Positions 2,095-19,034 of a DNA stretch of 42,815 bases are shown in pieces. Position 1 is the stretch's first letter; every line of letters starts with the position of its first letter. A program made the position numbers and the translations under genes. Source of the DNA: a gamma proteobacterium HTCC5015 (GTDB taxonomy: Bacteria > Pseudomonadota > Gammaproteobacteria > HTCC5015). Under the pieces are notes generated by a model. The model did no database searches and was not told the DNA's origin. It was given only the letters and a program-made list of their open reading frames with translations. The stretch spans positions 149,775-192,589 of the forward strand of contig DS990600.1 of assembly GCA_000155715.1 (NCBI GenBank). The letters are read 5' to 3'.

Positions 2095-3159
2095 TTAAAC
2101 GCTGGGTTGGGCGCCTTCGGCAGATGCCACTTTCTGAACCTGCTGACTCCAGTTAGCCGGCACCATATTGCGCAGTAGAAACTGGGCCGTTTTCTCCCAG
2201 TTATTCGAGCGCGCCTGGGCGATACAATCATCGCTACTCAACCGCTCGGCACGCGTCATCGCTCGGCTTAAGTCTTCGTCCAATACGCCCGTCACCCCAT
2301 CGTTCACCACATCCAACGGCCCGCTCACGGGGAACGCCGCCACAGGGGTGCCGCAGGCCATGGCCTCCAGCATCACCACACCGTAAGTATCGGTTAGCGA
2401 GGGGAAGACAAACACATCGGCAGCGGCAAAATAGCGCGCCAAGTCGCGCCCTTTTTGGTAACCCACGAAATGCACATGGGGATACTGAGCTTCTAGCTTA
2501 GCTCGACTGGGGCCATCGCCGACAACGACTTTGTGCCCCTCGTAGTCGACATCGAGAAAAGCTTGAATATTTTTCTCGGGGGCAATGCGCCCCACATAAA
2601 TAGCCACCTTGCCATCGAGGTGAGCCAATGGGTTTTCATCGTCTGCATCGAGCGGCCGAAACACACTGGTATCGACACCGCGCGACCACGTCACTACATT
2701 ATCAAAACCCCAGTGCTCCAGCTCTTTGCGCACACTATCGGTGGCCACCATGACGCGCTCGGAGTGCTTGTGAAACGCGTGCATCACGCGATAACCAAAG
2801 GGCACCGTCACAAAGGGAAAACGCGCATTGGTGTACTCGGGAAATTTGGTGTGAAACGCCGTGGTGTAACTCATACCGCGACGACTCATGTAACGCATAG
2901 CCGCTAAGCCTAGCGGCCCCTCCGTTACAATATGCAGGCGATCGGGTTTAAACCGTGCAATTTTTTCGCCCACGCGCCAGACATCCATCGAGAGTCGAAT
3001 TTCTGGGTAAGTCGGCATGGGAACCGTGTAGAACTGACTCGGCTGAATGACATCGACCTCGTGCCCCTCGTTGCGCAGCGTTTCAATCACGGTACTCATC
3101 GTAGTGACCACGCCGTTCACTTGGGGAAACCAAGCATCGCTAACAAACATGAGTTTCAT
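2095..3159 (-). CDS. agt: GT4 glycosyltransferase, likely Agt-type glycolipid synthase
   Basis: This 354-residue GT-B enzyme starts with FVSDAWFPQVNGVVTT, the glycine-rich loop of GT4 enzymes that act on lipid or diacylglycerol acceptors. The donor half contains YVGRIAPEKN (about residues 190-199), VVGDGPSRAKLE and the nucleotide-sugar motif SLTDTYGVVMLEAMACGTPVAA. In this motif the first Glu of the usual E-x7-E is Asp. The start overlaps the stop of the phosphoesterase gene as ATGA, and GGAG lies upstream, so the two are coupled. A GT4 enzyme coupled to an LpxH-like phosphoesterase is the known PlcP/Agt pair of marine bacteria: PlcP makes diacylglycerol from phospholipid and Agt adds a sugar. 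The Pho box upstream of the pair fits this. The exact sugar is unknown. Confidence 0.82.
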   Translation of the reverse strand: MKLMFVSDAWFPQVNGVVTTMSTVIETLRNEGHEVDVIQPSQFYTVPMPTYPEIRLSMDVWRVGEKIARFKPDRLHIVTEGPLGLAAMRYMSRRGMSYTTAFHTKFPEYTNARFPFVTVPFGYRVMHAFHKHSERVMVATDSVRKELEHWGFDNVVTWSRGVDTSVFRPLDADDENPLAHLDGKVAIYVGRIAPEKNIQAFLDVDYEGHKVVVGDGPSRAKLEAQYPHVHFVGYQKGRDLARYFAAADVFVFPSLTDTYGVVMLEAMACGTPVAAFPVSGPLDVVNDGVTGVLDEDLSRAMTRAERLSSDDCIAQARSNNWEKTAQFLLRNMVPANWSQQVQKVASAEGAQPSV

Positions 3160-4016
3160 AGTACTTGCTCCAGTTTTAGTTCGGCGATCAAGCCCAGCTC
3201 GTCGGTTTTCTCCATGTCGTCGGGCAGCAGCTCGACGACATTGTGTTCCCCGCGCGTCCAGCGCAGTATTTCGATACTTCCATCTTCGCTTTCGGCCAAG
3301 CCCGTGCAGGACTCCACCCAGTCACCGCAGTTCATATAAGTGACTTCACCAATGGAACGAATTTCGGCGTGGTGAATGTGGCCACAAATCACGCCGTCGT
3401 AACCGCCCTTTTCAGCGGCGTGAGCCACCCAGTGTTCGAACTCAGAGATAAAGTTAACCGCCGATTTGACGCGGTGTTTCAAGAAGGCCGATAGAGACCA
3501 ATAGCCGTAACCCAACTTGGCACGCACTTTGTTGTAGTGGGCATTAACTTGAATAATGCTGTCGTAGGCCGCACTACCGAGAACCGACAGCCACTTATGG
3601 CAGCGGGTGACCGCATCGAATTGATCGCCGTGTATCACCAAAAAGCGCTTTCCATCCGCCGTGGTATGTTCAATCTCATCGACTAACTCAATATTGCCGA
3701 AGGTACGCCCCGAATACTGGCGAAGAAATTCATCGTGATTACCCGTGACAAAAACGACACGAGTGCCGCGCTTTGACAGCGTTAAAATGCGGCGCACCAC
3801 ATTGGTGTGAGACTGCGGCCAGTAGACGCGACTTTTTAGCGCCCACCCATCGATAATATCGCCCACTAAGTAGAGTGTGTCGCAGCTGTGGTGCTTTAAG
3901 AAATCAGTGAGAAAATCGGCTTGGCAGCCTCGCGTCCCGAGATGAATGTCCGAGAGCCAAAGCGTTCTGTAGTGTCGCTTTTTGATTTTAATATTGTCTG
4001 TTCGTTGCTTTGCCAT
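3156..4016 (-). CDS. plcP: Metallophosphoesterase, likely PlcP-type phospholipase C
   Basis: This 286-residue calcineurin-type phosphoesterase has all the metal motifs: SDIHLG (D23, H25), GDIIDGW (52-58), GNHDEF (92-97), IHGDQFD and CGHIHHAE near residue 216. Automatic annotation would call it UDP-2,3-diacylglucosamine diphosphatase. However, it is about 45 residues longer than LpxH and begins a two-gene unit with a GT4 enzyme, which is the PlcP/Agt arrangement. PlcP cleaves phospholipid head groups to diacylglycerol when phosphate is scarce. AAGGTGA precedes the ATG by 6 bases. Upstream, a Pho box lies 80 bases from the start, and a TAAAAT hexamer (4082-4087, read on the minus strand) lies between the two. 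No signal peptide is visible, so action at the inner face of the membrane is inferred. Confidence 0.8.
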   Translation of the reverse strand: MAKQRTDNIKIKKRHYRTLWLSDIHLGTRGCQADFLTDFLKHHSCDTLYLVGDIIDGWALKSRVYWPQSHTNVVRRILTLSKRGTRVVFVTGNHDEFLRQYSGRTFGNIELVDEIEHTTADGKRFLVIHGDQFDAVTRCHKWLSVLGSAAYDSIIQVNAHYNKVRAKLGYGYWSLSAFLKHRVKSAVNFISEFEHWVAHAAEKGGYDGVICGHIHHAEIRSIGEVTYMNCGDWVESCTGLAESEDGSIEILRWTRGEHNVVELLPDDMEKTDELGLIAELKLEQVL

Positions 4017-4096
4017 AAGCCGTCACCTTTTGCAGCGCATTGTGCAAAATCAATATGACGGCAGGCCTGCAAAACGATGACATTTTATTGAAGCGT

Positions 4097-4114
4097 CTGT
4101 CATGTAGCTGTCAC
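4097..4114 (+). promoter_or_regulatory. Pho box (PhoB operator)
   Basis: CTGTCATGTAGCTGTCAC contains two CTGTCA direct repeats at the 11-base spacing of the PhoB consensus, and all 14 arm positions match. Only the 4-base spacer differs from the usual A/T-rich form. A further GTGACA at 4119-4124 makes an inverted repeat with the second arm. The repeats point toward the PAP2 gene, but no good -10 box follows on that side. On the other strand TAAAAT lies 9 bases beyond the box, toward plcP. Control of one or both divergent units by phosphate limitation is inferred. Confidence 0.8.
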
Positions 4115-4158
4115 TTCAGTGACACAGCGGCTTCACTCGGCCGTGCAATGATGGCGCT

Positions 4159-4719
4159 ATGAAAAAACTAAAACTACACAGCACAACACCGACAGGCTTT
4201 CCACTACAGCAGTGGGCCAGCGCGGCCATTCAATGGGATCATCACTCTTCGATTCAAATCAACCGAGCGGTGCACATTCAAGCCATTCGGCGCTTCTTTA
4301 GCATCATCAGCAAAATGGGCGATGGCCCCCTGTGGACGGCTGCGATTCTATGCGTGCCCGTATTTGCCGACAATGGCTGGACGGCCATGTTTCAAATGAG
4401 CCTCATGGCGTTGCTAGGCTTGGGCATCTACAAACTGATTAAGCACTTCACCAGCCGCCCACGGCCCTTTGTGCAACACCGTGAAATCACCTTGGGCTGT
4501 CCCCCACTCGATCAGTTCAGCTTCCCCTCGGGCCACACGCTACACGCCGTTGGCTTAACCACACTGTTCTGCTATCACTTTCCTACCGTCGGTGTACTGC
4601 TCGTACCTTTTGCGGCGCTGGTCGCGCTATCGCGCGTGATTCTCGGCTTACACTTCGTGTCCGACGTCCTCATGGGCGCTGGGATTGGATTGAGTCTGGC
4701 TCTTTTAATCATTTCATAA
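4159..4719 (+). CDS. PAP2-family membrane phosphatase
   Basis: This 186-residue integral membrane protein has the complete PAP2 triad: K95-x6-R102-P103 (in KHFTSRPRP), PSGH at 123-126 and SR-x5-H165-x3-D169. Hydrophobic stretches near residues 60-92, 128-152 and 170-186 give the usual bundle of helices. The family removes phosphate from phosphatidate, phosphatidylglycerol phosphate or undecaprenyl pyrophosphate, with the active site usually facing the periplasm. Its position divergent from plcP-agt across a Pho box suggests it may release phosphate and feed diacylglycerol to glycolipid synthesis. Substrate assignment is inference. The ATG at 4159 has no strong Shine-Dalgarno sequence (GGCGCT only). 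Confidence 0.87.
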   Translation: MKKLKLHSTTPTGFPLQQWASAAIQWDHHSSIQINRAVHIQAIRRFFSIISKMGDGPLWTAAILCVPVFADNGWTAMFQMSLMALLGLGIYKLIKHFTSRPRPFVQHREITLGCPPLDQFSFPSGHTLHAVGLTTLFCYHFPTVGVLLVPFAALVALSRVILGLHFVSDVLMGAGIGLSLALLIIS

Positions 4720-4826: not shown

Positions 4827-4882
4827 AAATGAAAAAATGACCTTAGGGCTGGAGTAGCAGCGCTCTATAGAATTTGTTCTTA

Positions 4883-4930
4883 GGGCCTGTTAACACAAAT
4901 TTTATGATCTCTGTTTGTGTTAACAGGCCC
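4883..4930. mobile_element. 48-bp internally deleted MITE relic
   Basis: Perfect 17-bp inverted arms, GGGCCTGTTAACACAAA at 4883-4899 and its complement at 4914-4930, enclose 14 bases. TA dinucleotides flank both sides (4881-4882 and 4931-4932), as expected of a TA target duplication. Its first 31 bases match the reverse complement of the right end of the 265-bp element at 9791-10055 with one mismatch. I infer a derivative that has lost its interior. Confidence 0.75.
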
Positions 4931-4998
4931 TAAAGTGTTCTACGCAAATCCCTTTAATTTCGTTACAGTGGGCGAAACCACCCATTGGAGCCACCTCT

Positions 4999-8348: not shown

Positions 8349-9791
8349 ATGTACCGTTTACTACTGACCCTATTTATAGGCGCCTTTTTAATTCTCGCCT
8401 GCGGCCCGCAACGCGGCGTTCAATACGATATTGAAGATCAGCACACCGTCGCCGTTATTAACGACTGGCGCGTGCCCACCGACAGCGCCCGCGCCCTGCA
8501 AACGGGCATGAACCGAGGACAAGTACAACATCACTTACGCGATGTCGTACAAGGCATTATCGAAAATGAATTGATCGCCGAGTACGCGCTCGATCGCTAC
8601 GGCATGGAGGAGCTGGTAAAACAAAATCGCGTGGCGTTTGAATTCGACGTCATCATCGAAGATCAAAGTACTGCCATTTTGCGCCACCATTTTGAAGACG
8701 CCATGTTGCAGTCCATCGCGCAGGAGCTGCCCGAAGGCAGCTTGGCGGGCACCACCACGCAAGCTTTTACACTCAAAGGGGAAGAATTGCTGGACATCGC
8801 CGAGCTGCAACATCTCGGAAAAATTGCCCTCACCCAAGAACAGCAACAACGCGCCAAAGAAACCGTACTCATCGCTTTTCAATTTCCCGGTGCCGAGGAA
8901 CAACGCGTCACGCTGTGGGACATCTACCGCCGTATGAACATCCAAGGCAAAGATCGCATTCACAAAGGCGATGTCGGCTTTGTCGAGGACCACGCCCGCC
9001 AGCGCGTCGGCTCGGCCTATGTGCGCTACTGGCTCAAGCAAAATAGAGCGCATGGCGAAGCCATCATCGCCGCCGTCGAGCGCTTTGTGCGCAACAAAGA
9101 GCTCAAACAGCGCTACATGCAAAAAGTCGGGCTGATTGCCGTTCTTCACGCCAACACTTCGGAAGTCTTCAAGCATCGCGCCGAGCAAGTTCCCCAAGCG
9201 GAGATCGCCGCCTACTTCAAAGAGCACAAGGCCGATTTCGAGCGCGTCGAGCGGGCGCGGGGGCGTCACCTGCGCTTTGCCGACGAGTCCACTGCCAATA
9301 AGGCCTACGCCGCACTGCATGAAGGCGCCAGCTACGACTCTGTGGCCGAGCACTATCAAGACAAGCTGCTCGCGCAGGGCGACACCGGCTGGATCGAGCG
9401 CCGTGATCGCGAGCAAATGTGGCTACAAACGCTACTGTTTACTCAACCCCTAGATACGCCCTCGCGCCCCTTCCGCAGCCCACAATCGGAAGGAGAGGAC
9501 ATATACTGGGACATTGTCATCGTCGATCAACGCGAAACCGGCTACCCCGCCGTAGACAGTGAGTCGGTGCGCTACGAGGTCAGTCAGATTCTGGCCAAGG
9601 CCGCCATCAGTAAAGACTTCAAGCTGCTGCGCGACACTTTGTTTAAAAACGCCTTAGTGCGGCTCAACCCCACACTGTTGGAGCTCGACGAACAGGGCGA
9701 CCCGCTGCCCGGCACCGAGAGCACTCACAAAAAGCGCCAGCCGTTTAGCGCCACCTTGCAACACGGCGATCACGCGGGGCATAGTCACTAG
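8349..9791 (+). CDS. Lipoprotein parvulin-type peptidyl-prolyl isomerase
   Basis: This 480-residue protein opens with a lipoprotein signal (LILAC, lipid-bearing C18). It then has a long helical N-terminal part resembling SurA/PpiC chaperone regions. A parvulin-like domain spans about residues 285-390: ARGRHLRF, a shortened loop, YDSVAEHYQDKLLAQGDTGWIERRD, then LFTQPLDTP and YWDIVIVDQRE. It probably assists folding of secreted proteins from a membrane-anchored position. Some catalytic residues look altered, so chaperone action may dominate. The start has AGGA upstream. The TAG stop is shared with the left edge of the MITE. The C-terminus is His-rich (HGDHAGHSH), which might bind metal. The next two genes, also exported, could be its clients; this is inference. 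Confidence 0.82.
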   Translation: MYRLLLTLFIGAFLILACGPQRGVQYDIEDQHTVAVINDWRVPTDSARALQTGMNRGQVQHHLRDVVQGIIENELIAEYALDRYGMEELVKQNRVAFEFDVIIEDQSTAILRHHFEDAMLQSIAQELPEGSLAGTTTQAFTLKGEELLDIAELQHLGKIALTQEQQQRAKETVLIAFQFPGAEEQRVTLWDIYRRMNIQGKDRIHKGDVGFVEDHARQRVGSAYVRYWLKQNRAHGEAIIAAVERFVRNKELKQRYMQKVGLIAVLHANTSEVFKHRAEQVPQAEIAAYFKEHKADFERVERARGRHLRFADESTANKAYAALHEGASYDSVAEHYQDKLLAQGDTGWIERRDREQMWLQTLLFTQPLDTPSRPFRSPQSEGEDIYWDIVIVDQRETGYPAVDSESVRYEVSQILAKAAISKDFKLLRDTLFKNALVRLNPTLLELDEQGDPLPGTESTHKKRQPFSATLQHGDHAGHSH

Positions 9792-10055
9792 GGCCTGTTA
9801 ACACAAATTTGATGGTCACTGTTGTGACTAAAAAAGCGCCAATCAAGGCGCAAGGAGCGTGGTTTGGTGACTCCAAATGAGCGACGAGCAACGATGAGTG
9901 GCGCTTTTTTAGCCACAACCCGAAGGGCTGGAGCTATTTTCCGCCCAGCTGCGTTATCCGTTGTTTGTGTAGACGTACTACACGGCACTCCTTCTGCCTT
10001 GCTGGGCAGAAAAATGGCTTCCAGCAGAGATCATAAAATTTGTGGTAACAGGCCC
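9791..10055. mobile_element. 265-bp MITE with TA target duplication
   Basis: The element starts GGGCCTGTTAACACAAATTT and ends in the inverted counterpart with one mismatch near the tip (GTTACC against GTTAAC). TA lies directly outside both ends (9789-9790 and 10056-10057). Inside is a perfect 14-bp inverted pair, CTAAAAAAGCGCCA at 9828-9841 and its complement at 9899-9912, plus a GTGTAG/CTACAC hairpin and an imperfect CCGCCCAGC/GCTGGGC pair. No transposase frame is present, so it would need an enzyme supplied elsewhere. It sits exactly between two genes: its first G completes the upstream stop codon, and the downstream ATG follows its right edge by 3 bases. I recall similar elements in other marine gammaproteobacteria, but that needs a search. 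Confidence 0.82.
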
Positions 10056-10058
10056 TAG

Positions 10059-16726: not shown

Positions 16727-18913
16727 CTATCCCGCCATTTTGGCCGCTCTGGCTGCATGCAGTTTTTTATAGCTCTCAATTAAGCGCTGGTGTTTTTCCA
16801 GCCCTTCCAATTGCGTATTGGTTGGTGTCAGTCCGTGGAACCGCTGCGTGCCAGCCACTAGGCCCACAACCGATTCCATCGTTTCTTCACCGTACATGCG
16901 CCCCAGATTAAAACGAAAATCATCGAGGACGAGCTCATCATCCAAAGTGATTTCCAGCACGGCATTGACTGCGCGGTAGAACAGGTTTCGCTCTACGGTG
17001 TTATCGTTGAATTGCAAAAACATCTCGACCCAGTCCAACGCGTCTTCGTGTTGCTGCAATGCGAGACACAGCATGATTTTCAGTTCCAAAATCGTGAGTT
17101 GTCCCCACACCGTGTTCTCATCAAACTCAATGCCAATCAAAGTGATGATGGTGGTGTAGTTGTCGATCTGGCTGTCCTCTAAACGATCGTAGAGATCGGC
17201 CAGTGCCTCGTCACTCAAACGATGTAAATTGAGAATGTCCTCGCGGTAATCGAGCGCCATATTGGTGTTATCCCACACCAAGTCCTCCGCGGGATACACC
17301 TCTGAATAATCGGGTACGAGAATGCGGCAAACGGGCGCACCCAAATCGTCGTGCACCATCATGTAAGCCTCTTTGCCTAAATCGTCTAGGATGCCAAACA
17401 GCGTGCGCGCCTCCTCTTCGGTTGTGCCCGAAAAATCCCACTCGCAAAACGCCACATCGGCACTGGCGCTAAAGAATCGCCAGGACACCACGCCCGTGGA
17501 GTCGATAAAATGTTCGACAAAATTGTTGGGTTCACTCACTTCGTGGCTATTAAAAGTAGGCGCGGGTACATCGTTTAAGCCTTCAAAGCTGCGCCCCTGC
17601 AACAGCTCTGTCAGACTTCGCTCCAGCGCCACTTCAAAATTGGGGTGCGCACCGAAAGAGGCAAACACACCGCCATTGCGCGGGTTCATCAAGGTGACGC
17701 ACATCACCGGGAACTGCCCGCCCAGCGAAGCATCCTTAACCAAAATGGGAAAGCCCTGAGCCTCCAGCGCTTCAATGCCCTCGACGATCTGCGGGTATTT
17801 GGCCAACACCTCCGCGGGCACGTCGGGTAGTGCGATTTCCTGCTCTAAAATCTCGCGCTTAACGGCTCGTTCAAAAATCTCCGACAAGCACTGCACCTGC
17901 GCTTCGGCCAATGTGTTGCCCGCGCTCATGCCGTTACTTAAAAACAAGTTTTCAATCAAGTTCGAGGGAATGTACACCGTGGTCTGGTCGGATTGACGCA
18001 CAAAGGGCAGCGCCACAATGCCGCGATCAGCGCGCCCAGAATTGGTATCGATCAAATGACTGGCTTGTAGCTCGCCATCGGGGTTGTAGAGACTCAAACA
18101 GTGTTCATCCAACAAGCCTTCGGGCAGGGCATCATCTGGGCCGGGTTGAAACCAGCGCTCACTGGGGTAGTGAACAAACTCGCTGTGGGCAATTTCTTCG
18201 CCAAAGTACTGATCGTTATAAAAAAAGTTACAACTCAGGCGCTCGATAAACTCGCCTAGGGCCGAACACAGGGCGCTCTCTTTGGTCGAGCCCTTGCCGT
18301 TGGTAAAACACATGGGCGAGGCCGCGTCTCGAATGTGCAGCGACCACACATGAGGCACTATATTGCGCCAAGAGGCGACCTCAATCTTCATGCCCAAGCT
18401 TTCGAGAATACCCGTCATATGGGCGATGGTATCCTCCAGTGGCAAGTCCTTGCCCTCGATATAGGTTTTTTCCTGACCATCGGCGATGTCCGTCAATAGG
18501 GCTTGGGCATCTTCGGCTAAGTGCTCGACGGGGTCGATCTCAAAATCGGGCCCCGCTTGGACGACCTTCTTCACCGTACAGCGATCAATCGCGCGCAATA
18601 TGCCTTGACGATCTTTTTCCGAGATTTCTTCAGGCAACTCGACCTGAATTTTAAAGATCTGCTGATAGCGGTTTTCAGGGTCGACAATATTGTTCTGAGA
18701 GACGCGAATATTGTCTGTAGAAATATCCCGCGCCTTGCAGTACACCTTGACGAAATAGGCCGCACACAGCGCCGAAGAGGCTAAAAAGTAATCGAAAGGA
18801 CTGGGCGCAGAGCCATCGCCCTTGTAGCGAATGGGCTGATCCGCCACCACGGTAAAATCGTCAAACTTCGCCTCAAGGCGCAGGTTGTCGAGAAAATTAA
18901 CATTGATTTCCAT
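16727..18913 (-). CDS. OsmC-YcaO fusion protein
   Basis: This 728-residue protein joins three parts. Residues 1-140 are an OsmC-like domain with both redox cysteines, C50 (ASSALCAAYF) and C112 (IDRCTVKKV). Residues about 150-560 are a YcaO domain, with STKESALCSALGEFIERLSC and EAQVQCLSEIFERAVKR providing the conserved Glu-rich ATP/Mg site. Residues about 570-728 are helical and TPR-like. YcaO proteins use ATP to activate backbone amides, and E. coli YcaO is tied to RimO-dependent methylthiolation of ribosomal protein S12. There is no precursor peptide or dehydrogenase gene next to it and no PxPxP C-terminus, so peptide-toxin synthesis is unlikely. The start at 18913 is preferred over 18943 because the OsmC domain begins directly. 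Confidence 0.88.
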   Translation of the reverse strand: MEINVNFLDNLRLEAKFDDFTVVADQPIRYKGDGSAPSPFDYFLASSALCAAYFVKVYCKARDISTDNIRVSQNNIVDPENRYQQIFKIQVELPEEISEKDRQGILRAIDRCTVKKVVQAGPDFEIDPVEHLAEDAQALLTDIADGQEKTYIEGKDLPLEDTIAHMTGILESLGMKIEVASWRNIVPHVWSLHIRDAASPMCFTNGKGSTKESALCSALGEFIERLSCNFFYNDQYFGEEIAHSEFVHYPSERWFQPGPDDALPEGLLDEHCLSLYNPDGELQASHLIDTNSGRADRGIVALPFVRQSDQTTVYIPSNLIENLFLSNGMSAGNTLAEAQVQCLSEIFERAVKREILEQEIALPDVPAEVLAKYPQIVEGIEALEAQGFPILVKDASLGGQFPVMCVTLMNPRNGGVFASFGAHPNFEVALERSLTELLQGRSFEGLNDVPAPTFNSHEVSEPNNFVEHFIDSTGVVSWRFFSASADVAFCEWDFSGTTEEEARTLFGILDDLGKEAYMMVHDDLGAPVCRILVPDYSEVYPAEDLVWDNTNMALDYREDILNLHRLSDEALADLYDRLEDSQIDNYTTIITLIGIEFDENTVWGQLTILELKIMLCLALQQHEDALDWVEMFLQFNDNTVERNLFYRAVNAVLEITLDDELVLDDFRFNLGRMYGEETMESVVGLVAGTQRFHGLTPTNTQLEGLEKHQRLIESYKKLHAARAAKMAG

Positions 18914-19034
18914 GAGCGAGGACCCAGACGAGAAATGGCGCACAGCGGCGTTGAGGCGTTACATTATCCTGATTTTTCAAGCTCGGATAAATGGCCTACC
19001 GAAAAACTCAAATCGTCGGTTTTTATACTGAATT

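Follow-up and report, generated by a model that had tools for sequence, protein, structure and literature searches.

The window (the whole 42,815-nucleotide stretch of DNA from gammaproteobacterium HTCC5015 analyzed here) contains, near one end, three genes whose open reading frames are laid out as described in a first-pass annotation made from the sequence alone, with a phosphoesterase gene and a GT4 glycosyltransferase gene opposite a PAP2 phosphatase gene (Table 1). The first two, plcP and agt, lie on the minus strand with a 4-bp overlap (ATGA), and the PAP2 gene diverges from the pair across a 142-bp intergenic region that contains a Pho box.

Table 1. Coordinates of the genes and regulatory features at the locus (window 2095–4719)
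Feature	Position	Strand	Description
agt	2095..3159	-	354 aa, GT4 glycosyltransferase; Pfam GT4 domains
plcP	3156..4016	-	286 aa, LpxH-like metallophosphoesterase; Metallophos domain
-10-like CACAAT	4044-4039	-	beside the 4055..4083 array; read from sequence
Possible second, degenerate Pho array	4055..4083	-	toward plcP; ATGTCAT / TTGCAGG / CCGTCAT, 11-bp period; weak, shuffle P = 0.011
Pho box	4097..4114	+	CTGTCAT and CTGTCAC separated by GTAG; oriented toward PAP2; no mismatch
PhoB half-site-like array	4097..4136	+	four units, 11-bp period; 7, 7, 5 and 4 of 7 matches; 0/500 shuffles
PAP2 gene	4159..4719	+	186 aa, membrane phosphatase; PF01569, 77.9 bits

Elsewhere in the window, a perfect inverted repeat of 20 bp (TTAGGGCCTGTTAACACAAA; fold z -8), its arms 14 nt apart, lies just downstream of the PAP2 gene at 4880–4933. 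Its terminal sequence bounds a 271-bp stretch at 9788–10058 with 1–2 mismatches, and a further copy of that sequence is found just upstream of the window (L151 3273–3286). Together these copies look like a dispersed family of miniature inverted-repeat elements. The ORF at 12–515 has weak similarity to an interior segment of RecB, and a run of N precedes it in the genome, so that it is probably a gene truncated by a gap or by masked sequence. A long ORF at 16727–18943 reads, by eye only, as a fused OsmC–YcaO protein.

Identity of the PlcP–Agt pair

The window phosphoesterase is 63% identical over 251 residues to P. aeruginosa PlcP in a pairwise comparison, and the GT4 protein is 50% identical over 329 residues to the glycosyltransferase adjoining P. 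aeruginosa plcP. The assignment to PlcP and Agt in the first-pass annotation thus finds its counterpart in the P. aeruginosa plcP–agt1 locus. The agt product combines GT4 domains with similarity to a characterized Agt, and plcP is linked to a gene of phosphorus-free lipid synthesis, with agt downstream and overlapping. From sequence, we predict that plcP encodes a cytoplasmic phospholipase C and that agt encodes a GT4 enzyme that glycosylates diacylglycerol (DAG).

Public annotation often names such phosphoesterases LpxH, in which case the locus would make lipid A. The protein scores 39.7 bits against the curated LpxH model, far from the cut-off of 190.35 bits, and a true LpxH (263 bits) is encoded elsewhere in the genome (C19). 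A phylogeny against true LpxH had been proposed in the first-pass annotation as the decisive comparison, and in our maximum-likelihood tree the PlcP-type (37) and LpxH (14) proteins split at 100/100 with the window protein in the PlcP clade, which was labeled by linkage to agt or btaA, the P. aeruginosa protein having been compared pairwise. The nearest neighbor of the window protein in the tree is a PlcP encoded behind a BtaA-like (DUF3419) gene with a Pho box. The score, the tree split and the genome's own LpxH refute an LpxH identity, and with the 63% identity to PlcP they leave a lipid A locus with negligible probability. Most PlcP matches bear the misleading annotation UDP-2,3-diacylglucosamine diphosphatase, which also appears in P. 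aeruginosa plasmid-labeled records (L240; 96–167 kb) carrying an apparently chromosomal plcP–agt region. The gene order in such a record is adenylate cyclase, glycosyltransferase, phosphoesterase, helix-turn-helix gene and tRNA-binding protein, and this synteny, together with the gene order given in PMC8528852, leads us to take the region, which is the reference for the identities above, as PA3217–PA3221.

In P. aeruginosa, the PA3218 glycosyltransferase gene lies immediately downstream of PA3219, and mutants of the PlcP–Agt1 pair show its glycolipid synthesis under phosphate stress (Jones et al. 2021, PMC8528852). Given the identity of the window proteins to this pair, the plcP–agt–Pho box part of our locus is an already known system, and plcP–agt by itself is very likely a Pho-regulated lipid-remodeling pair. 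PA3219–PA3218 resembles the window in gene order, in the 4-bp overlap and in its upstream Pho-box-type repeats, but it has no adjacent PAP2 gene, its divergent neighbor being the helix-turn-helix gene. The "type 2" clusters of marine heterotrophs likewise have plcP followed by agt with a Pho box, but the text on the six neighborhood types does not mention PAP2 (Sebastian et al. 2015, PMC4796936). Methylosinus trichosporium OB3b has a plcP–agt operon for glycolipid under phosphate limitation, again in a text without mention of PAP2, and MGDG persisted in its plcP–agt mutant (PMC9239053). A literature search, with most subscription journals outside its coverage, found no paper linking PlcP and PAP2.

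The Pho box between the divergent genes

The sequence CTGTCATGTAGCTGTCAC at 4097–4114 of the plus strand matches the consensus CTGTCATNNNNCTGTCAY without mismatch, in agreement with the first-pass annotation, in which all arm positions of the PhoB consensus were said to match. It is the sole exact match in the 2.6-Mb genome, where base composition predicts 0.034 matches genome-wide and about 2e-6 in the intergenic region, and 500 dinucleotide-shuffled versions of that region all scored lower. The genome-wide uniqueness and the shuffles rule out a chance origin. A PhoB-type regulator is present, since phoB-phoR-pstSCAB-phoU occur in the genome (phoB was called by an NCBIfam model, the other genes were recognized from sequence and gene order); sites resembling Pho boxes precede phoB and pstS. 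The locus therefore has two 7-bp direct repeats with an 11-bp period in a promoter region of a genome with PhoB. Sites with up to 3 mismatches show no genome-wide excess (245 versus 255 in the control), so that only close matches are informative on that scale. A Pho-like site at 496–513, with 2 mismatches and inside the end of an ORF, is probably due to chance.

The box is the first half of a longer array whose units (CTGTCAT, CTGTCAC, GTGACAC and GCTTCAC) weaken in that order, the two distal units being weak. The end of the box is 44 nt from the PAP2 start, and the strong direct repeats face PAP2, a point absent from the first-pass annotation. A sigma-70 scan of the intergenic region gave nothing useful, and there is no recognizable Shine–Dalgarno sequence before PAP2. 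The orientation of the strong repeats, together with the weakness of the array on the plcP side, would fit a box that controls PAP2 alone, with plcP–agt regulated otherwise or through the weak array. We consider this somewhat unlikely, as plcP is a Pho gene in characterized species, Pho-like sites precede plcP in 12 of 41 relatives (1.1 expected), and a good-poor-good array also precedes P. aeruginosa plcP. Such PAP2-only control concerns regulation and is compatible with our main explanation.

The PAP2 protein and its genomic neighbors

The PAP2 protein retains the three catalytic motifs of the superfamily (K95x6R102P103, P123SGH126 and S158Rx5H165xxxD169) and is predicted with confidence to adopt the membrane PAP2 fold (pLDDT 93); motifs and fold together place it in the PAP2 superfamily, of which it is the only member in the genome. 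Its nearest solved relatives, LpxE and B. subtilis PgpB, share this fold and the catalytic motifs, and Aquifex LpxE comes first among solved structures both in sequence and, by TM-score, in fold (TM 0.76/0.85). The subfamily differs from LpxE and PgpB in its sequence (about 25% identity), in a distinctive signature (ISRLGDG..WY, PLDxYSFPSGHTLHA) and in its gene neighbors. The protein is below the curated LpxE cut-off (25.4 versus 177 bits; NF007159, the single model used), and its best NCBIfam match, undecaprenyl-diphosphatase, is also far below cut-off (46 versus 250 bits). LpxE is a lipid A 1-phosphatase that accepts undecaprenyl pyrophosphate as well; the active site of PAP2 enzymes usually lies on the periplasmic side.

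With LpxE and PgpB as the nearest solved structures, other lipid phosphates are possible substrates. PAP2 might be an independent enzyme that saves phosphate or modifies the cell surface by acting on lipid A 1-phosphate or undecaprenyl pyrophosphate, with plcP–agt still a Pho-regulated pair; the proximity to Aquifex LpxE, the undecaprenyl-diphosphatase match and the suitability of a periplasmic active site for these substrates all point this way. We nevertheless find it unlikely, since undecaprenyl recycling is covered by a BacA encoded elsewhere in the genome (255 bits) and the subfamily tracks GT4 glycosyltransferases, with no lipid A neighbors seen in a survey that was not aimed at them. 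The genome also encodes PgpA (138 bits). With BacA and PgpA both encoded elsewhere, a housekeeping role is less likely, and PAP2 is unlikely to be the sole undecaprenyl or phosphatidylglycerophosphate (PGP) phosphatase. A PgpB-like housekeeping PGP phosphatase placed opposite plcP incidentally, as the PgpB-type enzymes among its solved relatives could suggest, is very improbable in view of PgpA, of linkage to plcP and GT4 genes far above chance, and of the enrichment of Pho boxes.

This linkage was established by a profile search for PAP2 and PlcP in 369 gammaproteobacterial genomes. At a threshold of at least 140 bits, 35 genomes have both proteins, 18 PAP2 only, 68 PlcP only and 248 neither, corresponding to an odds ratio of 7.1 (p 3e-10, uncorrected for shared ancestry). 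At a looser threshold, 47 genomes have both; in 14 of them no more than 10 kb separates PAP2 from plcP, versus 0.29 expected from random placement (again uncorrected for ancestry), and in 11 no more than 3 kb. Among the 14 genomes 12 families are represented, and the two genes are variously divergent, convergent or on the same strand, a diversity that favors repeated assembly of the linkage. Three of the 14 were used to seed the PAP2 profile, and the conclusion is unchanged without them. The first-pass annotation had called PAP2 a non-standard third member of the locus and proposed a search for conservation of plcP–agt–PAP2; its recurrence near plcP and the associated Pho boxes bear this suggestion out. 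On every point open to computation, the annotation's reading of the locus is supported.

An Agt-type or related glycosyltransferase is directly beside PAP2 in 59 of 80 named loci, and PlcP lies within about 6 kb in 11 of the 80. The GT4 proteins are of cytoplasmic type and resemble DAG glucosyltransferases; no close second GT4 of the PAP2-associated type was found in the window's own genome. Other neighbors in some loci are olsB/olsA (ornithine lipid), btaA (betaine lipid), ppk, and phoB-like and pstS-like genes. Pho boxes with up to 3 mismatches head 18 of 68 PAP2 operons; shuffled sequences gave 1.0, and 3% of control ORFs had such a box. In a further divergent plcP/PAP2 pair (G103), the box likewise faces PAP2, and one genome (G047, locus L090) has in a row phoR, phoB, a porin gene, PAP2, plcP, agt, another GT4 gene and polyphosphate kinase (ppk). 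Most plcP–agt loci lack an adjoining PAP2 gene, among them the P. aeruginosa locus and those of relatives such as G001.

The eight Acinetobacter genomes examined all carry this PAP2, most with a GT4 gene directly upstream, and all eight lack PlcP, giving LpxH-level matches or none. Four of the Acinetobacter GT4–PAP2 operons have a Pho box with at most 2 mismatches. These genomes are related and count as roughly one event.

A Thiothrix locus (L191) has plcP, a btaA-like gene, phoB, a GT4 gene, PAP2, ppk and another GT4 gene within 12 kb, and it and L090 are dense phosphate-economy islands. In four loci (L120, L122, L123 and L143), a distant PAP2 branch (32–37% identity) lies beside a MurG-like glycosyltransferase (Glyco_trans_1_3) and not a GT4, with plcP nearby in two.

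A candidate second supply of diacylglycerol

We propose that the locus is a Pho-regulated lipid-remodeling locus in which PAP2 is a second DAG supply, a reading to which we assign a probability of roughly 0.6. The gene identities, family placement, intact active sites, Pho box, recurrent linkage and Pho box enrichment support it; the control, the enzyme activities and the substrate are extrapolated from these. When phosphate is scarce, PhoB would bind the intergenic region and activate both sides. The cytoplasmic PlcP would cleave phospholipids to DAG and a phosphoalcohol, and Agt would glycosylate DAG with a UDP-sugar as donor, which would yield a phosphorus-free glycolipid. PAP2, a predicted phosphatidate phosphatase for which phosphatidic acid is suggested by the neighboring genes only, would release DAG and free phosphate in the membrane and feed the glycosyltransferase. 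New membrane could then be made directly as glycolipid, with no prior synthesis and degradation of phospholipid: PlcP would recycle existing phospholipid, and PAP2 would divert new synthesis upstream of it. The formation of DAG from phosphatidic acid is the probable, though by no means secure, step of the model. As the PAP2 site is expected to be periplasmic and both Agt and PlcP are taken as cytoplasmic, the DAG would need to cross the bilayer, a point against the model, as are the closeness of the protein to LpxE and the lack of PAP2 beside most plcP–agt loci.

Until now, the DAG of phosphate-saving glycolipids in bacteria has been attributed to the PlcP route. Yet residual glycolipid is found in a plcP mutant of P. 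aeruginosa, from which an alternative DAG supply was inferred (Jones et al. 2021, PMC8528852). Phosphatidate phosphatases were suggested as a DAG source for cyanobacteria only (Sebastian et al. 2015, PMC4796936). The idea of DAG from a phosphatidate phosphatase is hence not wholly new (PMC8528852, PMC4796936); what appears to be new is that heterotrophic bacteria have a particular PAP2 subfamily linked to the Pho system. Such a PAP2, accompanied by the glycosyltransferase, is a named candidate for a second DAG supply in those lineages that have it; we make no such claim for P. aeruginosa.

More tentatively, and at slightly less than even odds, this PAP2 subfamily, which in gammaproteobacteria is paired with Agt-type glycosyltransferases and would often be controlled by PhoB, may generally supply DAG for phosphate-starvation glycolipids independently of PlcP, working alongside PlcP here and replacing it in groups that lack PlcP, such as Acinetobacter. 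PAP2 may thus be an unrecognized second source of the glycolipid building block. If so, PlcP-less bacteria such as Acinetobacter would be predicted to make glycolipids when phosphate is short, and surveys of lipid remodeling that use plcP as the sole marker would miss them.
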